This document shows positions 30,016 through 38,652 of a stretch of 64,000 nt of DNA, piece after piece (the first letter of the stretch is position 1; every line of letters begins with the position of its first letter). This DNA is from Pirellula sp. (GTDB lineage Bacteria > Planctomycetota > Planctomycetia > Pirellulales > PNKZ01): assembly GCA_013822735.1 (NCBI GenBank), contig PNKZ01000004.1, positions 1 to 64,000 of the forward strand, written 5' to 3'. Both the position numbers and the translations under genes were made by a program. Below the pieces are notes generated by a model, which was not told the origin of the DNA, did not search any database, and worked only from the letters and a program-made list of their open reading frames with translations.

Positions 30016-30224
30016 TCGACGTAAGTCCCCAGTCGCGCACGAGCCCGATCTTTGACTTACGTCGATGCCAAGCTACGAGGCTGCGCAGATAACTCCGGTT
30101 ATCTGCGCACAACCCTAAAACCCACAAGGGGTGCGCAGATAGATCGAGTTATCTGCGCACCACCCGCATCGATTCGGCGACGTAACCTCCATTTACCCGA
30201 AACCAATATGTCCCAACTTACGTC
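30016..30224. repeat. Composite palindromic repeat, copy B
   Basis: The same architecture as copy A at 1-181. TCGACGTAAGTC (30016-30027) and GACTTACGTCGA (30054-30065) precede two hairpins: TGCGCAGATAAC (30082-30093) with GTTATCTGCGCA (30098-30109), and GTGCGCAGATA (30131-30141) with TATCTGCGCAC (30150-30160). The linker between the hairpins matches copy A closely (both contain CACAAGGGGTGCGCAGATA). The right end has the same order of motifs, ending ACTTACGTCGATTT. The hairpin loops differ between copies while the stems are kept. Confidence 0.85.
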
Positions 30225-30315
30225 GATTTCCGATCGTTTGTTTCGCCACGCCGGCGGGTCGGTTAGCATGTCAGCACCCGCCCCGCTTCCGTCTCCCGCC
30301 TGGAAGAAACACGCC

Positions 30316-31329
30316 ATGAACTCTCGCCTTCTTGTCGGCCATATTGCGCTTACGCTCGCTGCACTGCTTGCCTCCTACGCCTCCGCGCAATCTCCCGCTC
30401 CGATGGGCCCCACACCGCCGCCGCTCGTGCAGGTCGAGCCGTTGCCGCACTTTCAGGCCCGCTTCCTGCAAGGCGATCGCGAACTGACCCGTTATCATTT
30501 CGACCCCGTCGACCGCCGCTCGTTTCTGTATCCGCTCACCGGCCCGAGCGGGCTCTCGCTCACGCGCATGGGGCACCCTCGCGATCCCGTCGGACATAGT
30601 CATCACAACTCGGCGTGGATCGCCCACCACATCGTCGACGGCACCAATTTTTGGGGCGATCGCGGAGCGAAGCTCGGCCGCGTCGTAACGCAGATGATCG
30701 AGCAGATCGACGACCGCGACGACGGCGCTTGGCTCACGGCCGTGAATCATTGGATCGCCGACGACACCAAGGAAACGCTGCTCGTCGAACGACGACGCAT
30801 GGAAGTGCTGCCGTCGTCCGACGGCCAGTTTCTCACGCTCATCGACCTGGAGTTCATGACTCCGAAGCGCGCGATGACGTTCGAGAAGACGACGTTTGGC
30901 TTGCTCGCCGTACGGATGCGGAAGAGCATCGGAGTTCACGACGGCGGAGGGCGCATCTTGAATTCGGAAGGGGCCGTGAACGAGAAGGGAACCGACGGTA
31001 CGAACGGCGTGTTTTGGAAGCCCGCCAAGTGGTGCGACTACTCCGGGCCCGTCACGGCGACCGCCTCGGAAGGGATCGCCATTTTTGATCACCCGAAGAA
31101 CCACAATTTCCCGACTGAGTACCACGTGCGCGACGACGGCTGGATGGGAACTTGCCTCACGCACGACGGCCCGCTCACGCTGCAACCCGGCGAGAAGCTC
31201 AAGCTGCGCTACGGGCTCTACGTGCACGGCGGCGTGCCGGACGTTTCGGCGCTCGACGCGCAGTGGGAGACGTTCGCCAAGTTGCCGGTGCCGGAAACGC
31301 TGGAGAAACCGAAGCCTGCGAAGAAGTGA
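30316..31329 (+). CDS. Exported DUF6807 (PmoA-like) protein
   Basis: A 337-residue protein. The ATG at 30316 is chosen because GGAAG lies nine bases upstream and a signal peptide (about 1-22, ending YASAQ) begins there; the frame remains open further upstream through the repeat region. The body has the DUF6807 pattern: DRRSFLYPLTGPSGLSLTRM, HPRDPVGHSHHNSAWIAHH and GTNFWGDRG, with a later YHVRDDGWMG. The family is common in planctomycetes and has been annotated as PmoA-like without experimental support; a carbohydrate-related beta-sandwich fold is likely. Periplasmic, function unknown. Confidence 0.8.
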   Translation: MNSRLLVGHIALTLAALLASYASAQSPAPMGPTPPPLVQVEPLPHFQARFLQGDRELTRYHFDPVDRRSFLYPLTGPSGLSLTRMGHPRDPVGHSHHNSAWIAHHIVDGTNFWGDRGAKLGRVVTQMIEQIDDRDDGAWLTAVNHWIADDTKETLLVERRRMEVLPSSDGQFLTLIDLEFMTPKRAMTFEKTTFGLLAVRMRKSIGVHDGGGRILNSEGAVNEKGTDGTNGVFWKPAKWCDYSGPVTATASEGIAIFDHPKNHNFPTEYHVRDDGWMGTCLTHDGPLTLQPGEKLKLRYGLYVHGGVPDVSALDAQWETFAKLPVPETLEKPKPAKK

Positions 31330-31354: not shown

Positions 31355-32320
31355 TTACTCGATGCTATGGAAACTTGCACCGCCGCGATTCGGAGCAGCG
31401 ACCGTAACGTCATAGCGCGCGGCATCCGGCCATGCTTGGCAACTCGCAATGAATTGCTCCGCAGCGAGAACCGAAGGATGAACGGTGAATAACGTCGGCC
31501 CCCACGACGATTGCCCCACGCCGGCGACGCCGAGCGCTCGCACGCGGGCGACGAGCATGGCGAGTTCGTCGGTTGCGTATACGCCTGCTTGATGACTCTT
31601 AAAGCATTGCCCCGCCGCGTGGCCGAAATGATAGAGCGCCTCGGAGAAGCCCGCGAAGTCGCCCGAGCGCGCGGCCGGCACGAGGTCCAACAACGCGATG
31701 CGGCAGAGTTGATCGGTGAGCGATTGCGGCACCGCGGGGAGATCGGCGAACGCGGCCCGTTCGGGTTCGCCGGAGAGCCCTTGCTGCTCGCGCGGGCAGA
31801 TCAGGACGAAGCGCCACGTTTCCGGAAGTTCCACCTGAGCGGCCAGCGGTGCAACGCCGTCGTGCGGCAACCGTCCGGCCTCGACGATCAAGCCGCCGTG
31901 GAGAAAGCCGTACAATCCGACGGCAGAGCGTTTGGCGCGGCCGGCGACCTGTGCGAGTTCCAAAGCTCCGAGCGGCGGCAGATTCAGAAACTTTCGCAAG
32001 CCCGCAACGACGGCAAGCGCGGTTTGCGTGCCGCTTCCCAAACCGGTGTGCGAACGAGGGCTGACGATGGTTTCGACCTTCAGCGGCGGCAGATCGCGTC
32101 CCCACGATGTTGCGCGCACTTGCACGACGGCCTGGCGCAAACGTTGCTGATTGGGGCCGAGGAACTCGTCTTTTTCGGCGGCGGAGATGCGCAGTTCCAA
32201 GGCAGGCTCATCGATCATCACCCCGGCGCCGCCGAACTGCCGGAGCGTCGGCACGCCGAACGAAAACATGCCGAAGTGCAGTCGGCTCGGTGCGCGGACC
32301 ATCAAGAGGGGCTCACTCAT
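31355..32320 (-). CDS. Beta-ribofuranosylaminobenzene 5'-phosphate synthase family protein (GHMP fold)
   Basis: A 321-residue protein starting at 32320, where its ATG overlaps the stop of the DUF447 gene by 8 bp. It begins VRAPSRLHFGMF, as in archaeal beta-RFAP synthases, and contains the GHMP-type glycine loop SPRSHTGLGSGTQTAL and C-terminal GVGQSSWGPTLF. The enzyme joins 4-aminobenzoate to PRPP with loss of CO2 and pyrophosphate, the first committed step of methanopterin biosynthesis. The neighbouring pabA/pabB genes would supply the substrate. It is the last gene of the minus-strand operon and converges with the DUF6807 gene. Confidence 0.87.
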   Translation of the reverse strand: MSEPLLMVRAPSRLHFGMFSFGVPTLRQFGGAGVMIDEPALELRISAAEKDEFLGPNQQRLRQAVVQVRATSWGRDLPPLKVETIVSPRSHTGLGSGTQTALAVVAGLRKFLNLPPLGALELAQVAGRAKRSAVGLYGFLHGGLIVEAGRLPHDGVAPLAAQVELPETWRFVLICPREQQGLSGEPERAAFADLPAVPQSLTDQLCRIALLDLVPAARSGDFAGFSEALYHFGHAAGQCFKSHQAGVYATDELAMLVARVRALGVAGVGQSSWGPTLFTVHPSVLAAEQFIASCQAWPDAARYDVTVAAPNRGGASFHSIE

Positions 32321-32909
32321 GACCCGCCTCGCGGCCGGCAACCGGCCGTGCGTAGTGCTCGGCAACATACCCGAGCAAGAACGCGAAGGCTCGTCGCTCG
32401 GCGTCGCCGGCTGTCTTCTCCACTAGCGGACGCAACGCCGCGAGTTGCTTCTCGACATCCTCGCGCGGCAGCAGATGTAGGCGCGTCGCCAAGATGGCCG
32501 CTTCGACGACCGCGTGCTTGGCTCGATTCAGGCCGAAGAAGGGGCGTTGCTCCCCGTTTTTCACCGCCCGGCAGACGATGGTCGTCCGCTCCGATTGATC
32601 ATCAAGCTCATCCACCCGCAGCAAGAACCAGCGACAAGCATCGACCAGCACATGGGCTTCCGCGCCCGGCAGTTGCCGTACGTTCGGCGGCGGCGACAAA
32701 TGACCGACCGCGGCATGTGCCAAGAGTTCGACATCGTCGGTCACATGAAAGACGCCTACGCCGGTACGTTTCAAGTTGCGATACGTGGTCGAGGTTTGAA
32801 AGGGACGGAGCGTGAACACGGAAAGCACTCCATCGACGAGCGGCCCCATCGGCGACACGTTGACCGTGCCGTCGAGGTTCGTCGTCGTCATGAGTCCTTC
32901 GAGAATCAT
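32313..32909 (-). CDS. DUF447-family protein (FMN split-barrel type)
   Basis: A 198-residue protein. MILEGLMTTTNLDGTVNVSPMGP is the characteristic DUF447 opening, and GVFHVTDDVELLAHAA and FFGLNRAKHAVVEAAI are further family segments. DUF447 proteins have a flavin-reductase-like split barrel and occur in gene clusters for tetrahydromethanopterin-linked C1 metabolism in archaea, methylotrophs and planctomycetes. The precise reaction is not known. It lies 21 bp after pabA and overlaps the beta-RFAP synthase gene. Confidence 0.83.
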   Translation of the reverse strand: MILEGLMTTTNLDGTVNVSPMGPLVDGVLSVFTLRPFQTSTTYRNLKRTGVGVFHVTDDVELLAHAAVGHLSPPPNVRQLPGAEAHVLVDACRWFLLRVDELDDQSERTTIVCRAVKNGEQRPFFGLNRAKHAVVEAAILATRLHLLPREDVEKQLAALRPLVEKTAGDAERRAFAFLLGYVAEHYARPVAGREAGHE

Positions 32910-32930
32910 CCGCGGAGGTCGATCTTGTCG

Positions 32931-33590
32931 TTAGAACGTGATGGGTACATTCGGAAGCGCTTGCTCGGCGGCCGGCGGAGCGCGTTCCTCGTCGAGCGTC
33001 GGAAGATAGGCAGGAGCCGGCAATCCGGCCAGCGTAAGGAAATTAGCGAGCAACTGGTAGCCCCCTTCGGTCAGCACCGATTCCGGATGGAACTGTACGC
33101 CGAAGATTGGGAGGGTTCGATGTTCCACGGCCATCACGACGCCGTCATCGGTCGAAGCCGTGGCTCGGAGGCAATCGGGGAGCGTCGCCGGATCGGCACA
33201 GAGCGAATGATAGCGAGCGACGCTCAGCGGCGAAGGAAGATCGGCGAAGAGCCTTCTGCGGTCATGAACCAACGACGCCGTTCGGCCGTGCACGGGGACC
33301 GGCGAACGCACCGTTCGACCGCCGAAGGCCTCGGCAATCGCTTGATGCCCCAGGCAAATGCCCAGCATCGGTACCTCCTCGGCGAGGCCGCGCACGACGT
33401 CGAGCGAACAGCCGGCTTGCTGCGGCGCGCAAGGACCCGGCGACAGTATGATCGCGCACGGCTTCAAGGCCCGGATTTCCGCGACACTCATCGCGTCGTT
33501 GCGGATGACGCGCGTCTCCAGGCCGAGCCGGCGTACGTAGCGGGCCAGGTTATGCACAAAGCTATCGTAGTTGTCGAGCAAAAGAATCAT
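32931..33590 (-). CDS. pabA: Aminodeoxychorismate synthase, glutamine amidotransferase subunit
   Basis: A 219-residue class I glutamine amidotransferase. It begins MILLLDNYDSFVHNLARYV, typical of PabA/TrpG. The oxyanion-hole segment reads ILSPGPCAP, the nucleophilic cysteine is in GICLGHQAI, and the His-Glu pair is in FHPESVLT. It would release ammonia from glutamine for PabB. PabA and TrpG cannot be separated on sequence alone, but the adjacent PabB and the methanopterin context support PabA. It might also serve anthranilate synthase. It lies 66 bp behind pabB. Confidence 0.85.
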   Translation of the reverse strand: MILLLDNYDSFVHNLARYVRRLGLETRVIRNDAMSVAEIRALKPCAIILSPGPCAPQQAGCSLDVVRGLAEEVPMLGICLGHQAIAEAFGGRTVRSPVPVHGRTASLVHDRRRLFADLPSPLSVARYHSLCADPATLPDCLRATASTDDGVVMAVEHRTLPIFGVQFHPESVLTEGGYQLLANFLTLAGLPAPAYLPTLDEERAPPAAEQALPNVPITF

Positions 33591-33656
33591 GGTTGGTTCG
33601 GCAATTCCTCATTGAGCCCCGGAGCTTATCTCCGGGTGCAGCGCTTGCTTTCAAAG

Positions 33657-35105
33657 TCACGGTCGCAGCGCCCGCAGCAATCCTTCCGCTTTGTGCCAAG
33701 TCTCTTCGTACTCCGCTTTCGGATCGCTCTGCGCAGTGATCCCGCCGCCGACCGGCGCTTGCCACCAACCGCGGCCTGCCGTAATCGTACGAATCAAGAT
33801 GCTGGAGTCCATCGTGCCGTCGAAGCCGAGATAGGCGAGGCTGCCGCAATACGGGCCGCGCGCCGTGGGCTCAAGCTCGGCAATGATCTCCATCGCCCGA
33901 ATCTTAGGCGCACCGGTAATCGAGCCGCCGGGAAAGGCCGCCGCGAGCGCGTCGATCGCGCTCACCCCGGGGCGCAACTTGCCCGACACCGCGGAGACGA
34001 GATGCTGCACGAATTCGTAACTCTCCAGCGCACACAACTGCGGCACGAAAACGCTGTCGTCAGTACAGACGCGCGAAAGATCGTTCCGCAACAGATCGAC
34101 GATCATCACGTTCTCGGCCCGGTCTTTCTCGCTCGCATAGAGATCGGCGGCCGAGTACATGTCGACTTCCGGCAACGACGTACGAAGTCGAGTTCCTTTG
34201 ATAGGCCGGGTCTCCACGACATCGTCGACCACTTGCAGAAATCGTTCGGGCGACGCCGACACGATTTGAAACTCACCCAAGTCGAAGTATCCCGCGAAAG
34301 TCGCCGGATTGCGGCGGCGCAGACGCATATAGAGATCGACGCCTTCGTCGATCGCCGGATGCAGCAACCGCTGGGCCAAGTTGACTTGGAAGATGTCCCC
34401 CGCGTACACGTACTCGACGGCCCGGCTCACCGCCGCAAGGTATCCGGCGGCGTCGAAGTTGCTCGTCAGACCCGGCATGCCGCGGACGTCGTATTGCGGC
34501 ACCAGATCGCTCGCACGGACGCTAGGCTGCTGCCTCTGCCGAACTCGGGAAGCGGTGCTGCCGTGGGTAAGCAGGCCATGGAATTCACGCATTCGCACTG
34601 CCGCCCTGCGACGGCGCGCGGCGGACTCAAGTTCGGGAAAGCCTTGCGAAATGAGCCAAGCCCGGTTGGTCTCATGATCCCACGCGAGCACGACGTCGTA
34701 GAGCCCGTAGGCGATGGGAGGAATTTGGAATTCATCAGCGCGTGGCGCGGGCAACCGTTCCGATTGTCGGCCGAGATCGTAGCCGAAGAGGGCCGCGGCT
34801 CCCCCTTGGAACGGCGGCAAGTCAGCGCGGCGCGTTGTGGGAAACGGTGCGACTGCCGCGCGCAAGCGATCGACGGCTCCGCCCTGCTCGCCGGACTCCT
34901 GCACAAACGCAAACGGATCGGCGGCCAAGAATGAAAATCTACCGAGGCGCCGTTCGCGGCGTGCACTATCAAAAAAGACGCAATGTTCACGCGTGGCGAA
35001 CCGCAAGAACGCCGCTTCGGGATCGGGCGGTGGGGACAACTCTTCGACGAGCGGCAGATCGTCGCAGGGGGCAAACGGCCCCACCGATTCGGCGGACGAC
35101 ATCAT
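33657..35105 (-). CDS. pabB: Aminodeoxychorismate synthase component I
   Basis: A 482-residue chorismate-binding enzyme. The ATG at 35105 overlaps the preceding stop as ATGA, and GGAG lies seven bases before it; the frame is open to 35189 inside the upstream gene. The motif ETRPIKGTRLR contains the PIKGT sequence with the catalytic lysine that distinguishes PabB from TrpE (PIAGT). FQVNLAQRL, DLLRNDLSRVC and PGGSITGAPKIRAMEII are further chorismate-binding signatures. With PabA it makes 4-amino-4-deoxychorismate from chorismate. No pabC (lyase) is seen in the window. Confidence 0.88.
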   Translation of the reverse strand: MMSSAESVGPFAPCDDLPLVEELSPPPDPEAAFLRFATREHCVFFDSARRERRLGRFSFLAADPFAFVQESGEQGGAVDRLRAAVAPFPTTRRADLPPFQGGAAALFGYDLGRQSERLPAPRADEFQIPPIAYGLYDVVLAWDHETNRAWLISQGFPELESAARRRRAAVRMREFHGLLTHGSTASRVRQRQQPSVRASDLVPQYDVRGMPGLTSNFDAAGYLAAVSRAVEYVYAGDIFQVNLAQRLLHPAIDEGVDLYMRLRRRNPATFAGYFDLGEFQIVSASPERFLQVVDDVVETRPIKGTRLRTSLPEVDMYSAADLYASEKDRAENVMIVDLLRNDLSRVCTDDSVFVPQLCALESYEFVQHLVSAVSGKLRPGVSAIDALAAAFPGGSITGAPKIRAMEIIAELEPTARGPYCGSLAYLGFDGTMDSSILIRTITAGRGWWQAPVGGGITAQSDPKAEYEETWHKAEGLLRALRP

Positions 35106-36517
35106 GGCGAGTCTCCGTCGCTCGAAGCTTCGGCACGGCGTCGCTTTCGCTCGCGGTGGCTCTCCTCGGCCCGGGTAAGCAATCCCCAATCGAGAGCTTG
35201 ATCCTGGCGGTAGTCTTTATCGAGCGTGAGCGCAGTCAGGGCCTTCGCCATTTCAAAGCCGAGGTAGAACGCATGCCCGGCATCGAGCTGCTTGGTTCGT
35301 TGCGACTGCAAAGCTTCAAACAGCTCGAACGGGTCGTTGCCTTGCAAATGCGTGGCTGCCGACAAAAGATGCAACTCGCCTCCTTCGGCGAAGATCCGCA
35401 CATTGTCGTCCCGAATCTGCTGCGTCAGTTGTGCCAGGGCTTCGGCTCCATACTCAAAGCGTTTGGCGTCGCGCAGCATGACGAGGCGGTCATCAACGCG
35501 TTTCGGCAAATTGTGAGTCGCGACGGCGTAATGGACAAGCCGACGGGCGACATCGCATTCTTTTACACAAGTGCGCGCCCAATTGATGACCTGCGTCGTG
35601 AGCACGCTGCGGATGCCGAGTTCTTGACAAAAACCCAACAGCAGCACGTTGATCGGCCCGCTATCGGCGTCGGTGAGTTCGGTGATGTTGCCGATGCCCA
35701 TCATGATTTCGGCATCGGGATAGCGACGGCGCGTTTCGAGGTACCGGCCCAGGCTATGTGCGAAGCCGAAGCCGATCGGTTCCAAGATCGGATCAATCCG
35801 CAGCGGAACGCCGGCCATGGCGATGCGCTCGATTGTCGAATCCAAACCGGCGAGCGTGGCCGGATCGTCGGGCACGACGACCACTTCGATGCCCCAATCG
35901 GCGGCGGCGGCACAGTTTTGCGAATTGACGCTCAGCACCAGTTCTGCCCCGGCCCGAGCCGCGGCGGCGATTTCCGTCGGGTTCATGCTGTCGATCGAAA
36001 CTCGCAAGCCGGCATCGCGCAGCATGCGCACCACTTCGCCGACGGCGGACCACTCGTAGCCCGGGTCGCAGCCCACGTCGATCAAATCGGCGCCGTCGGC
36101 GTTCATCGCCAGAGCTTGCCGAAGAATGGCGTCGTGCGACAAGCGGGGCGCATGGTTAATCTCGGCGAGAATCTCAATGTCGTACTTGCCGTATTCCTCC
36201 GCCCCCGGACGTTTGCGGCCGAAGAGCGCCGGCAAATCACGAAGGTCTTTCGGTCCGCGCTCCACCGGTTTGCCGCACGCTTCGGCAATCGGAGCGAGGT
36301 CCCCATGGCAATAGCCGGGCACGATCGCGCGGTTGGCCGACTCGATACGCGCCACGTGCTTCGCGAGCCATTGCGGCGTCATCAATGCGGCGACGGTGAT
36401 CGGCAATACATCGACGGTGTAATCGAAGCCGACTTGCTGCGCCAAGGGCTCCAGCACTTTGCGGAGCGCAAACTCCGCCAAGCGCCCTGTGACGAACTGG
36501 ATATGTTCCCGCGACAT
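35102..36517 (-). CDS. DUF6513 and dihydropteroate-synthase-like protein
   Basis: A 471-residue cytoplasmic protein. The N-terminal part (about 1-140, starting HIQFVTGRLAEFALR) matches the DUF6513 region, and the central part (about 140-330) is a pterin-binding TIM barrel related to dihydropteroate synthase: LIDVGCDPG, VSIDSMNP and IGNITELTDADSG. Such proteins occur with beta-RFAP synthase in archaeal and methylotroph methanopterin clusters and are distinct from FolP. A role in condensing the pterin with the RFA moiety is the obvious hypothesis. It follows the SDR gene by 18 bp and overlaps pabB. Confidence 0.85.
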   Translation of the reverse strand: MSREHIQFVTGRLAEFALRKVLEPLAQQVGFDYTVDVLPITVAALMTPQWLAKHVARIESANRAIVPGYCHGDLAPIAEACGKPVERGPKDLRDLPALFGRKRPGAEEYGKYDIEILAEINHAPRLSHDAILRQALAMNADGADLIDVGCDPGYEWSAVGEVVRMLRDAGLRVSIDSMNPTEIAAAARAGAELVLSVNSQNCAAAADWGIEVVVVPDDPATLAGLDSTIERIAMAGVPLRIDPILEPIGFGFAHSLGRYLETRRRYPDAEIMMGIGNITELTDADSGPINVLLLGFCQELGIRSVLTTQVINWARTCVKECDVARRLVHYAVATHNLPKRVDDRLVMLRDAKRFEYGAEALAQLTQQIRDDNVRIFAEGGELHLLSAATHLQGNDPFELFEALQSQRTKQLDAGHAFYLGFEMAKALTALTLDKDYRQDQALDWGLLTRAEESHRERKRRRAEASSDGDSP

Positions 36518-36535
36518 CAGACGCCCCCGCAGGAA

Positions 36536-37345
36536 TTAAGAGCGAACGTCGGTGTGCGGATACGGCTCTCCGCGCCGCAATCCACCATTCACCGGCAGGA
36601 TGTGCCCCGTGATAAAGTCGGCCGCGGGAGATGCCAAAAAGGCGACGGCGTCGGCAATGTCTTGCGGCGTCCCCCAGCGAGCGCGAAGAGATTCTCCTAC
36701 CGCGCGGCGTTGCCAGTATTCCGACGCATCGTCGCCCCATTCCGTTTTGATCCAGCCGGGTGCGACGCAATTTACGCGGACGTTCGGCGCCAGCGAGTGC
36801 GCCAGGCTGCGCGTGAAGGCCATCACGGCCCCTTTCACGGCGGCAAACATTTCGCCGCTGTCGCCCGCCATGCCCGTGGCTGCTTGGTCCCAGCCGATAT
36901 TGATAATCGAACCGCGACGTCGCTCAAGCATGCGACGGCCCGCATCGCGCGCCAAACGCATGGTCGCGGCGACGTCGACTTGCCAGAGGGCGGTGAGTTT
37001 CTCGTCGAACGACCAAGTGCGGGCCGCGCCGGTCAGCACGTCGACGCCGGCATTGTTGACCCAGACGTCGACGCCGCCAAAGCTTTCAAAGGCTTGCTCG
37101 ACGAATTGAATGCAAGCTTGCGAATCGGCCAGGTCGGCGAGCAGGATCTTAGCCTCGCCCCCGGAAGTGCGAATGGCTTCGGCCGTCGCTTCAGCCCCAG
37201 CGACGTTGCCGCGACCATGCACGACGACGGCGAATCCGGCTGCGGCCAGGGTCTTGGCGATCGCGCTGCCGATACCCCCGGACGAACCGGTAACGACGGC
37301 CGTGCGACGCGTTGGCAAGCCGGCAGTTTCGGCGGAACGAGGCAT
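36536..37345 (-). CDS. Atypical short-chain dehydrogenase/reductase
   Basis: A 269-residue SDR protein. The NAD(P)-binding loop TGSSGGIGSAI and NNAG are intact, but the catalytic YxxxK reads MFAAVK: Phe167 (codon TTT) replaces the tyrosine and Lys171 is kept. The usual active-site serine region reads INIGWDQ, with no serine. It is the first gene of the six-gene methanopterin-type operon. A reductase acting on a pterin by a non-standard mechanism, in the way that some pteridine reductases deviate, is an inference; a nucleotide-binding non-enzyme is also possible. Confidence 0.8.
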   Translation of the reverse strand: MPRSAETAGLPTRRTAVVTGSSGGIGSAIAKTLAAAGFAVVVHGRGNVAGAEATAEAIRTSGGEAKILLADLADSQACIQFVEQAFESFGGVDVWVNNAGVDVLTGAARTWSFDEKLTALWQVDVAATMRLARDAGRRMLERRRGSIINIGWDQAATGMAGDSGEMFAAVKGAVMAFTRSLAHSLAPNVRVNCVAPGWIKTEWGDDASEYWQRRAVGESLRARWGTPQDIADAVAFLASPAADFITGHILPVNGGLRRGEPYPHTDVRS

Positions 37346-37506
37346 CGTATAATGGTGCTGGAAGTACGTTAGAAATAGACGATAAGTTGGTTGTAGTTGG
37401 CACTTCGGCAATCGGCAAGCCACGGCGGTGCCGGGACGACGCAAACTCCATCAATATTGAACCGCCTCGATACCACAACCCGGATTCAACGCGAGCAGGC
37501 AACACG

Positions 37507-38652
37507 ATGGCCCAATCCTGGATGCAGCGAATGGGCGCGACGGTGTTGGCGTTTCGGGGCTACAACCTGACGAACCTCGGGAAGACGCCCGAACTGCTCG
37601 CGCATCCCGCCTACGGGCCCATTGTCGAGCGCCATCTGCAACTTGCCGGGACGATTTGTTCTGAAGCACTCGGGCGGCATATCGATCTGGTGGAAAGAGT
37701 CCGAAGCAATCGAGAAAGCACGCTGGAAACCTTCGCGGAAGACATCGGACTGATCATCTCGGTCGAGATGGCACAACTCGAATTGCTCGATCAGTTCTTC
37801 AGCACCGACTACCGCGCGGCCCGTTTCTCGATGGGGTACAGCCTGGGCGAGATTACGGCTCTCGTCGCCGGCGGGACGTTCGTGGTCGAGCAAGTCTTAC
37901 CACCGCTCGTGAAATTGGCGGGCGATTGCGCAGAACTGGCTCGCGACGCCGCGATGGGCATTCTCTTTTCGCGAGGTCCGGAAATTGATCCTGTGGCGGT
38001 GCAGCGATTGTGCATCGAGGTGAATGCCGAAGGGCGCGGCGTGATCGCCGTTTCGTCGTATCTCTCGCCGAACACCATTTTACTCATCGGTCAACGCGAC
38101 ACGCTGACGCGATTTAAAGATCGGATGCACGCAGTGCTGGGAGCGCGCGTCAATTTGCGCAAGGCCGACGGCGCCTGGCCGCCGCTCCACACGCCCTTGC
38201 TTTGGGAGAAATGCGTTCCAAATCGCGCGGGCAGCGCGATGCACCTGCTCGCCGGCGGCATCGAAGTGCCGCACCCCAACGTACTTTCGCTGGTCACCGG
38301 CAAGCAAAGTTACAACGGCTACAACGCGCGGCAAACGTTGGTCGACTGGCTTGAGCGGCCGCAACGTTTATGGGACGGCGTTTGCGAAATCCTCGGCAGC
38401 GGCGCCGAAGCGGTCCTGCATATCGGGCCCGACCCCAACCTCATTCCGGCAACGTTCAAGCGACTCAGCGAAAACGTGCTCGCGCAAACGAGCGGGCGCA
38501 GTTTCAACAGTTGGGGAAAGCAGGCCGTGTCGATGATCGCCCGCCGCGCATGGCTCGCTCCGGTGCTTTCGACACGTGTCGGGTTGCTGCGCGCGCCGTA
38601 TATTGAGCATGTCATTCTCGAAGACTGGCTGCTCAAGCAAGATGTGCAATAA
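37507..38652 (+). CDS. Divergent FabD-like acyltransferase
   Basis: A 381-residue protein with the malonyl-CoA:ACP transacylase fold. The nucleophile motif reads MGYSLGE (Ser112) in place of GHSLGE, and a likely active-site His is in PPLHTPLLWEK. The N-terminal GQG oxyanion loop of FabD is absent; the segment reads AFRGYNLTNLG. It is longer than standard FabD (about 310). It stands alone, divergent from the methanopterin operon, without other fatty acid or polyketide genes nearby. It may load an unusual acyl group; the substrate is unknown. Confidence 0.75.
   Translation: MAQSWMQRMGATVLAFRGYNLTNLGKTPELLAHPAYGPIVERHLQLAGTICSEALGRHIDLVERVRSNRESTLETFAEDIGLIISVEMAQLELLDQFFSTDYRAARFSMGYSLGEITALVAGGTFVVEQVLPPLVKLAGDCAELARDAAMGILFSRGPEIDPVAVQRLCIEVNAEGRGVIAVSSYLSPNTILLIGQRDTLTRFKDRMHAVLGARVNLRKADGAWPPLHTPLLWEKCVPNRAGSAMHLLAGGIEVPHPNVLSLVTGKQSYNGYNARQTLVDWLERPQRLWDGVCEILGSGAEAVLHIGPDPNLIPATFKRLSENVLAQTSGRSFNSWGKQAVSMIARRAWLAPVLSTRVGLLRAPYIEHVILEDWLLKQDVQ

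Follow-up and report, generated by a model that had tools for sequence, protein, structure and literature searches.

A short-chain dehydrogenase/reductase of a planctomycete methanopterin operon as a candidate dihydromethanopterin reductase

We have analyzed a stretch of 64,000 nucleotides from the planctomycete Pirellula sp. (positions 1 to 64,000 of contig PNKZ01000004.1, hereafter the window), in which six genes of the minus strand, running from 37345 to 31355, form a compact operon of the methanopterin type. The first of them (36536..37345) codes for a protein of 269 amino acids with the fold of the short-chain dehydrogenases/reductases (SDR), assigned from Pfam, orthologs and a structural model and recognizable by a GWDQ...GMxG signature that was derived from the ortholog alignment (residues 151-161, encoded at 36864..36895 of the minus strand). 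It is followed by genes for a DUF6513/Pterin_bind protein, PabB, PabA, a DUF447 protein and a member of the RFAP-synthase family. Judging from its phylogenetic profile and its linkage to these genes, the SDR is highly likely to belong to the methanopterin pathway. We propose, with slightly less than even confidence, that it would be the dihydromethanopterin reductase of planctomycetes, i.e., the enzyme of the last step. The initial annotation of this DNA had pointed to an atypical SDR as a candidate for a missing step of methanopterin synthesis, and as a candidacy this is supported.

The distribution of the gene across the phylum follows that of the pathway. With a threshold of E <= 1e-45, an ortholog of the SDR was detected in 27 of 294 planctomycete genomes (weakest match 1.4e-69), and Mch in 28 of them. 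The SDR was present in 27 of the 28 genomes with mch and in none of the 266 without it (Fisher p 2e-37 by genome). Counting by the 93 family labels gave 7 of 8 versus 0 of 85 (p 8e-10), and this is the fairer figure, as kinship among the genomes is not fully removed from the profile statistic. The single exception was G185, which has mch and lacks the SDR. The SDR is likewise missing from G167, where a DUF6513-like gene is present and mch is not. A DNA pattern of the GWDQ...GMxG motif matched 26 of the 294 genomes, all of them SDR genomes and once in each, and the reversed control pattern matched none; the SDR genome that was missed, G087, escaped the pattern because its motif reads GWDT. In 14 of the 27 SDR genomes the gene adjoins that of the DUF6513 protein in the same orientation, either directly or with a Pterin_4a relative in between. 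The other 13 SDRs stand away from DUF6513, so that the profile is more than an effect of linkage. Among these unlinked copies, that of G130 is located beside relatives of methanofuran genes and that of G291 beside a Pterin_4a relative, 6 kb from DUF6513.

Beyond the phylum set, among the 80 loci listed by a wider pattern scan, GWDQ was found only in L105 and L106, both in genomes with mch; the listing, probably filled by the common TGxxxGIG pattern, does not gauge the spread outside the planctomycetes. Mch was sought in 24 genomes (corresponding to 25 of the 80 loci) and found in six, including four non-planctomycete ones (L171, L168, L129 and L108). No SDR was found when it was sought in the genome of L171. 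A related SDR with Trp-Asp at the motif site is encoded at L108:1805-2536, in a gammaproteobacterial metagenome-assembled genome (MAG) with mch. As to the literature, no title or abstract start among those listed proposed the GWDQ SDR, an earlier mention being possible since key papers were outside the search.

The step proposed for this protein is one that lacks an enzyme in planctomycetes, because Afp was not recognized in their genomes according to an excerpt of PMC5020050. In our searches the model TIGR02699 (AfpA/DmrB) had no match at E <= 0.001 in the source genome, and none over its full length in the 29 planctomycete genomes searched; weak partial matches were found in 10 of the 29 (best, 30.6 bits over 55 positions), and weak matches also appeared in 12 of 14 control genomes. 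Given the lack of full-length matches, we do not favor an AfpA/DmrB hidden in the planctomycetes. In the family of a Paraburkholderia (80 genomes, some of them very small) the same model found 12 full-length matches of 79-93 bits, and there the SDR was found in none at E <= 1e-45. Dihydrofolate reductase (DHFR), sought with PF00186 only and thus without other DHFR-like or RibD_C relatives, was absent from the source genome and from 19 of the 27 SDR genomes, and present in 9 of the 29 genomes, i.e., 8 SDR genomes and G185. In the DfrA/DmrA tree described in an excerpt of PMC6193120, all planctomycete homologs group with DfrA and not with DmrA.

The SDR itself (Pfam adh_short_C2, 164 bits) has kept its cofactor site and changed its active site. 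Among the 26 other orthologs, identity to the window protein is 47-56%, and the cofactor motif TGxxxGxG is retained, with T19, G20, G24, I25 and G26 invariant in the 27 sequences, as is Lys171. In the 29 sequences with GWDQ or GWDT, the Asn of the classical Asn-Ser-Tyr-Lys tetrad is replaced by Asp124 (29/29), the Ser by Trp152 (29/29) and the Tyr by Phe167 (28/29), and Lys171 is kept in all. In 43 comparison SDRs the tetrad residues were found in 34 (Asn), 40 (Ser), 41 (Tyr) and 43 (Lys) cases. Three of the four residues are thus replaced in the window SDR. Besides, Asp102, Asp153, Trp198, Trp203, Trp211 and Trp224 are fixed in the 29 sequences. A dead gene is not favored as the explanation of the lost catalytic residues, since the cofactor motif and the Lys are invariant. 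The AlphaFold2 model (predicted local distance difference test score, pLDDT, 90.6) has a Rossmann fold and is FabG-like.

From the protein families involved, the operon would make the aromatic half of dephospho-methanopterin and then join the two halves. PabA and PabB would form aminodeoxychorismate, towards 4-aminobenzoate, a branch common to folate; the RFAP-synthase-family protein would convert 4-aminobenzoate and phosphoribosyl pyrophosphate (PRPP) into beta-ribofuranosylaminobenzene 5'-phosphate (beta-RFA-P), and the DUF6513 protein, similar to dihydropteroate synthases, would join the latter to the hydroxymethyl-dihydropterin unit. The SDR would stand in for DmrA and AfpA/DmrB, using NAD(P)H to reduce dihydromethanopterin to its tetrahydro form. 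The model for its action would be pteridine reductase 1 (PTR1) in its second half-reaction: nicotinamide would donate the hydride and water the proton, Lys171 would hold the cofactor, and the pterin could be bound by the invariant Asp residues. According to an excerpt of PMC1618733, the Asp, Tyr and Lys of PTR1 act in its first reduction, and the second one, which turns the dihydro into the tetrahydro form, is DHFR-like, water supplying the proton. The lost Tyr (here Phe) may be dispensable because in this second half-reaction the proton would come from water, and an SDR with the Lys and an Asp and without the Tyr would therefore be a reasonable dihydropterin reductase and a poor ketoreductase. 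By this analogy, the GWDQ SDR could represent a third class of dihydromethanopterin reductase, unrelated to the other two, a PTR-like scaffold keeping only the Tyr-independent half-reaction, a proposal that we make tentatively and hold to be somewhat doubtful. Where no DHFR is recognizable, as in 19 of the SDR genomes, the protein might also reduce dihydrofolate.

Several observations weigh against the SDR being this reductase. Its fold is that of an ordinary FabG-like enzyme (Z 33.7 to 2uvd and 2ph3), and FabG-type models, with up to 184.8 bits, outscore the pteridine-reductase models, which stayed under their cut-offs (146.1 of 288 for PRK09135/NF006598 and 134.6 of 325 for TmpR/NF012208), as did all the 25 NCBIfam models listed for the SDR. 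The Asp-Tyr-Lys triad of PTR1 and FolM is broken by the Phe found at the Tyr position in 28 of 29 sequences, and Asp153 is located one residue past the Ser position and therefore may not match the place of the PTR1 Asp. A fold search had no pteridine reductase among the 50 entries listed, which excludes nothing. The contrast in TIGR02699 rests on full-length scores, because none of the 29 planctomycete and none of the 80 Burkholderia-family genomes pass the cut-off of the model, and just one of the 12 Burkholderia-family matches was seen near mch (3.4 kb from it). The search for DmrA was limited to PF00186, and that for the SDR scored at most 8 candidates per genome in the phylum (at most 32 in the Burkholderia family), the pattern scan being unlimited and covering the motif only. 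A further case is G185, which has mch, ftr, CitG, an MptN-like gene, Pterin_4a, DUF6513 and DHFR, with no SDR and with a 22-bit partial match to TIGR02699. Another enzyme can therefore do the step there, where DHFR is present as it is in 8 SDR genomes. Finally, the SDR at L107:2634-3365, from a planctomycete MAG, is 39% identical and has Trp-Asp at the motif site, and no mch was found in that genome; relatives of the SDR therefore occur without the pathway. In a tree of 72 sequences, made up of the 27 orthologs and of 45 of the 80 loci listed by the scan, L108 and L107 branch beside the GWDQ clade (support 0.98, 0.97), the node of the clade itself having a support of 0.11.

Other roles for the SDR can be envisaged within the pathway. 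It lies directly upstream of the candidate condensing enzyme, and sugar-type reductions are common among SDRs, both of which would suit an earlier reduction, for instance one that opens the ribofuranosyl ring in the condensed product to give the 1-deoxyribitol chain, a step that to our knowledge has no assigned enzyme. However, every methanopterin maker should need this step, yet the SDR was found at E <= 1e-45 in none of the 80 Burkholderia-family genomes, 12 of them with DmrB-like genes, and the operon offers in DUF447 an alternative candidate for it, so that we consider this role unlikely. The SDR could also recycle oxidized cofactor together with a Pterin_4a-like neighbor by reducing quinonoid dihydropterin back to the tetrahydro state, for which the mammalian dihydropteridine reductase provides the model. 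A Pterin_4a relative does adjoin DUF6513 or the SDR in 13 of the 29 loci described below (Pfam was run on two of them, L056 and L058, and both were positive), but the same search found none in the 64-kb window, G185 has the Pterin_4a gene without having the SDR, and we know of no hydroxylase that makes the 4a-carbinolamine from methanopterin, all of which leaves recycling as quite improbable.

The replacement of Asn, Ser and Tyr would also fit with the protein being a pseudoenzyme or a scaffold, which would bind NAD(P)H or pterin and serve to organize or regulate the pathway. Such a role appears very improbable to us, since the residues of the cofactor motif and Lys171 are invariant and so many Trp and Asp are fixed among orthologs of this degree of divergence, which fits a kept active site. 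As a candidate for the reduction of dihydromethanopterin, one gene with nearly perfect co-occurrence and a clear signature makes the gap at the last step testable.

The six-gene cluster reported from the sequence is real, and its overlaps and short gaps agree with the frames, the Pfam matches and the spacing. The gene for the DUF6513 and Pterin_bind protein (35102..36517, minus strand as are all that follow; 471 amino acids), the probable condensing enzyme, starts 18 nt after the stop of the SDR; its matches to DUF6513 (82 bits) and Pterin_bind (39 bits) are above the Pfam cut-offs and that to the NCBIfam model TIGR00284 (186 bits) is under the cut-off of 256.65. An ATGA start-stop overlap, from which the start of PabB was taken, joins it to pabB (33657..35105; Chorismate_bind, 281 bits; also compared with NCBIfam). 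After 66 nt comes the PabA/TrpG-type glutamine amidotransferase (32931..33590; GATase, 194 bits; Pfam and NCBIfam), with the motifs GICLGHQ and FHPES, and after another 21 nt the DUF447 protein (32313..32909; DUF447_N 67 and DUF447_C 52 bits, above the Pfam cut-offs). The latter is close to the solved chain 3b5m (E 1.2e-40), labelled just as an uncharacterized protein; we presume that DUF447 is a family of FMN-binding split-barrel proteins, and the pathway may have in it a second redox enzyme. The last gene, of the beta-RFAP synthase family (MptG-like; 31355..32320), overlaps DUF447 by 8 nt if the later ATG at 32320 is taken as the start, an alternative being the upstream ATG at 32368. It matches the GHMP kinase N and C domains of Pfam (25 and 23 bits) and the NCBIfam beta-RFAP synthase models NF040726 (106 bits, cut-off 328) and TIGR00144 (88 bits, cut-off 113.5), both under cut-off. 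Three solved relatives were found at E <= 0.01 (44 bits for the closest), one from a complex of ForT with PRPP and two annotated as beta-RFAP synthase. Upstream of the SDR there is a divergent frame of 382 amino acids on the plus strand (37504-38649), without a Pfam match, and beyond the last gene of the operon a convergent DUF6807 gene (30205-31326). Promoter-like and terminator-like sites were no commoner than in shuffled sequence.

The genome from which the window comes (G000; 6.88 Mb in 38 contigs, 99% complete) contains one Mch gene (contig G000:C10, 409 bits) and two copies of ftr (L001 and L002, 189 and 161 bits) on separate contigs, neither of them that of the operon. Having two ftr and one mch, it very probably has a methanopterin-linked C1 metabolism. 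These genes, two among the C1 genes (mch, fae, ftr/fhc and mtd) that the initial annotation had named for a check elsewhere in the genome, together with the DUF6513, Pterin_bind and DUF447 matches support its description of a methanopterin-type cofactor operon.

Its idea of a pab pair dedicated to methanopterin is not supported in this genome. The search with PF00425 detected two chorismate-binding enzymes in the source genome, the PabB of the operon and one TrpE (TIGR00564, 580.7 bits over a cut-off of 517.7; motif PLAGT). The operon protein is under every NCBIfam cut-off (trpE_most 361.5/517.7, PabB-clade2 347.5/408.55, pabB 310.1/328.4). In this motif Lys (PIKGT) marks PabB and Ala (PLAGT) marks TrpE, and we have named it PabB because it has PIKGT and TrpE is located elsewhere. 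There are three Pterin_bind matches in the genome, a true dihydropteroate synthase FolP (TIGR01496, 317.8 bits, above the cut-off of 162.6), a frame of 1241 amino acids that we take to be MetH from its length, and the DUF6513 protein. No further PabB for folate was found among the PF00425 matches of the source genome. With FolP present and a single PabB, the operon enzyme very probably serves folate as well as methanopterin. The dedicated pair would fit with PabB adjoining DUF6513 in 21 of the 29 loci and PabA following PabB in 11; given the source genome, where TrpE is the only other chorismate-binding enzyme, it is extremely improbable. In the other 28 genomes with DUF6513, PF00425 found two enzymes in 27 and one in G148, TrpE and PabB not being sorted among them.

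Relatives of the DUF6513 protein, sought at E <= 1e-10 in the 294 genomes by scoring up to 5 candidates in each, were found in 29. The neighborhoods of the window and of the 28 other loci, some of which end at contig ends, were searched with the window and island proteins. The full six-gene order, whose comparison among planctomycetes the initial annotation had suggested, was found in three loci, the window, L032 and L034, all from one order. Since it is repeated in two more genomes, and since the SDR-DUF6513 and DUF6513-PabB adjacencies recur across the phylum, the arrangement goes beyond chance. Five loci (L053, L054, L056, L057 and L059) have the row Mch, MptN-like, CitG, PTPS, SDR, PCD, DUF6513 and PabB, PCD being missing from L053, and PTPS was verified by Pfam in the five. 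In these loci the PTPS-family protein adjoins CitG (fused to it in L056) and is a possible source of the hydroxymethyl-dihydropterin unit. The cluster of G185 (L058) contains MfnB, a kinase-like frame, MfnF-like, MfnD-like, CitG, MptN-like, Mch, a GXGXG-domain frame (FhcC by eye), Ftr, Pterin_4a and DUF6513, and no SDR; the nearest NCBIfam model of its ATP-grasp protein is MptN (234 bits, cut-off 350). In the single-contig genome G167 (L033) a DUF6513-like gene of 38% identity is found beside PabB, with neither mch nor the GWDQ SDR.

These loci resemble the methanopterin islands of methylotrophic Proteobacteria, which according to an excerpt of PMC3615186 carry mptG, with a pcbD-mptG pair in Methylosinus (we take pcbD to be the PCD gene). 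The same excerpt lists pabB with those genes that in methylotrophs are commonly linked to the making of methanopterin, although it is absent from the genome of the Methylosinus island. Unlike the proteobacterial islands, the planctomycete loci have the GWDQ SDR and no recognizable DmrB. The reaction that we propose for the SDR would be that of two other proteins: the flavoprotein AfpA/DmrB (TIGR02699), of an unrelated family, and DmrA of Methylobacterium, which is DHFR-like instead of having an SDR fold and uses a pyridine nucleotide as donor. The latter is taken from an excerpt of PMC6193120, which also reports that afpA rescued growth on methanol of a dmrA deletion in Methylobacterium extorquens. 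If our proposal is true, this would be a third independent solution to dihydromethanopterin reduction, and it would show an SDR without the Tyr to be capable of pterin reduction. With PTR1, FolM and TmpR the window protein has in common the SDR fold, the catalytic Lys and an Asp near the active-site strand, but it differs in the Phe for Tyr, in the Trp at the Ser position and in its scores under the cut-offs of these families. FabG and the classical SDRs are its best matches in structure and sequence, but their Asn, Ser and Tyr are replaced in it.

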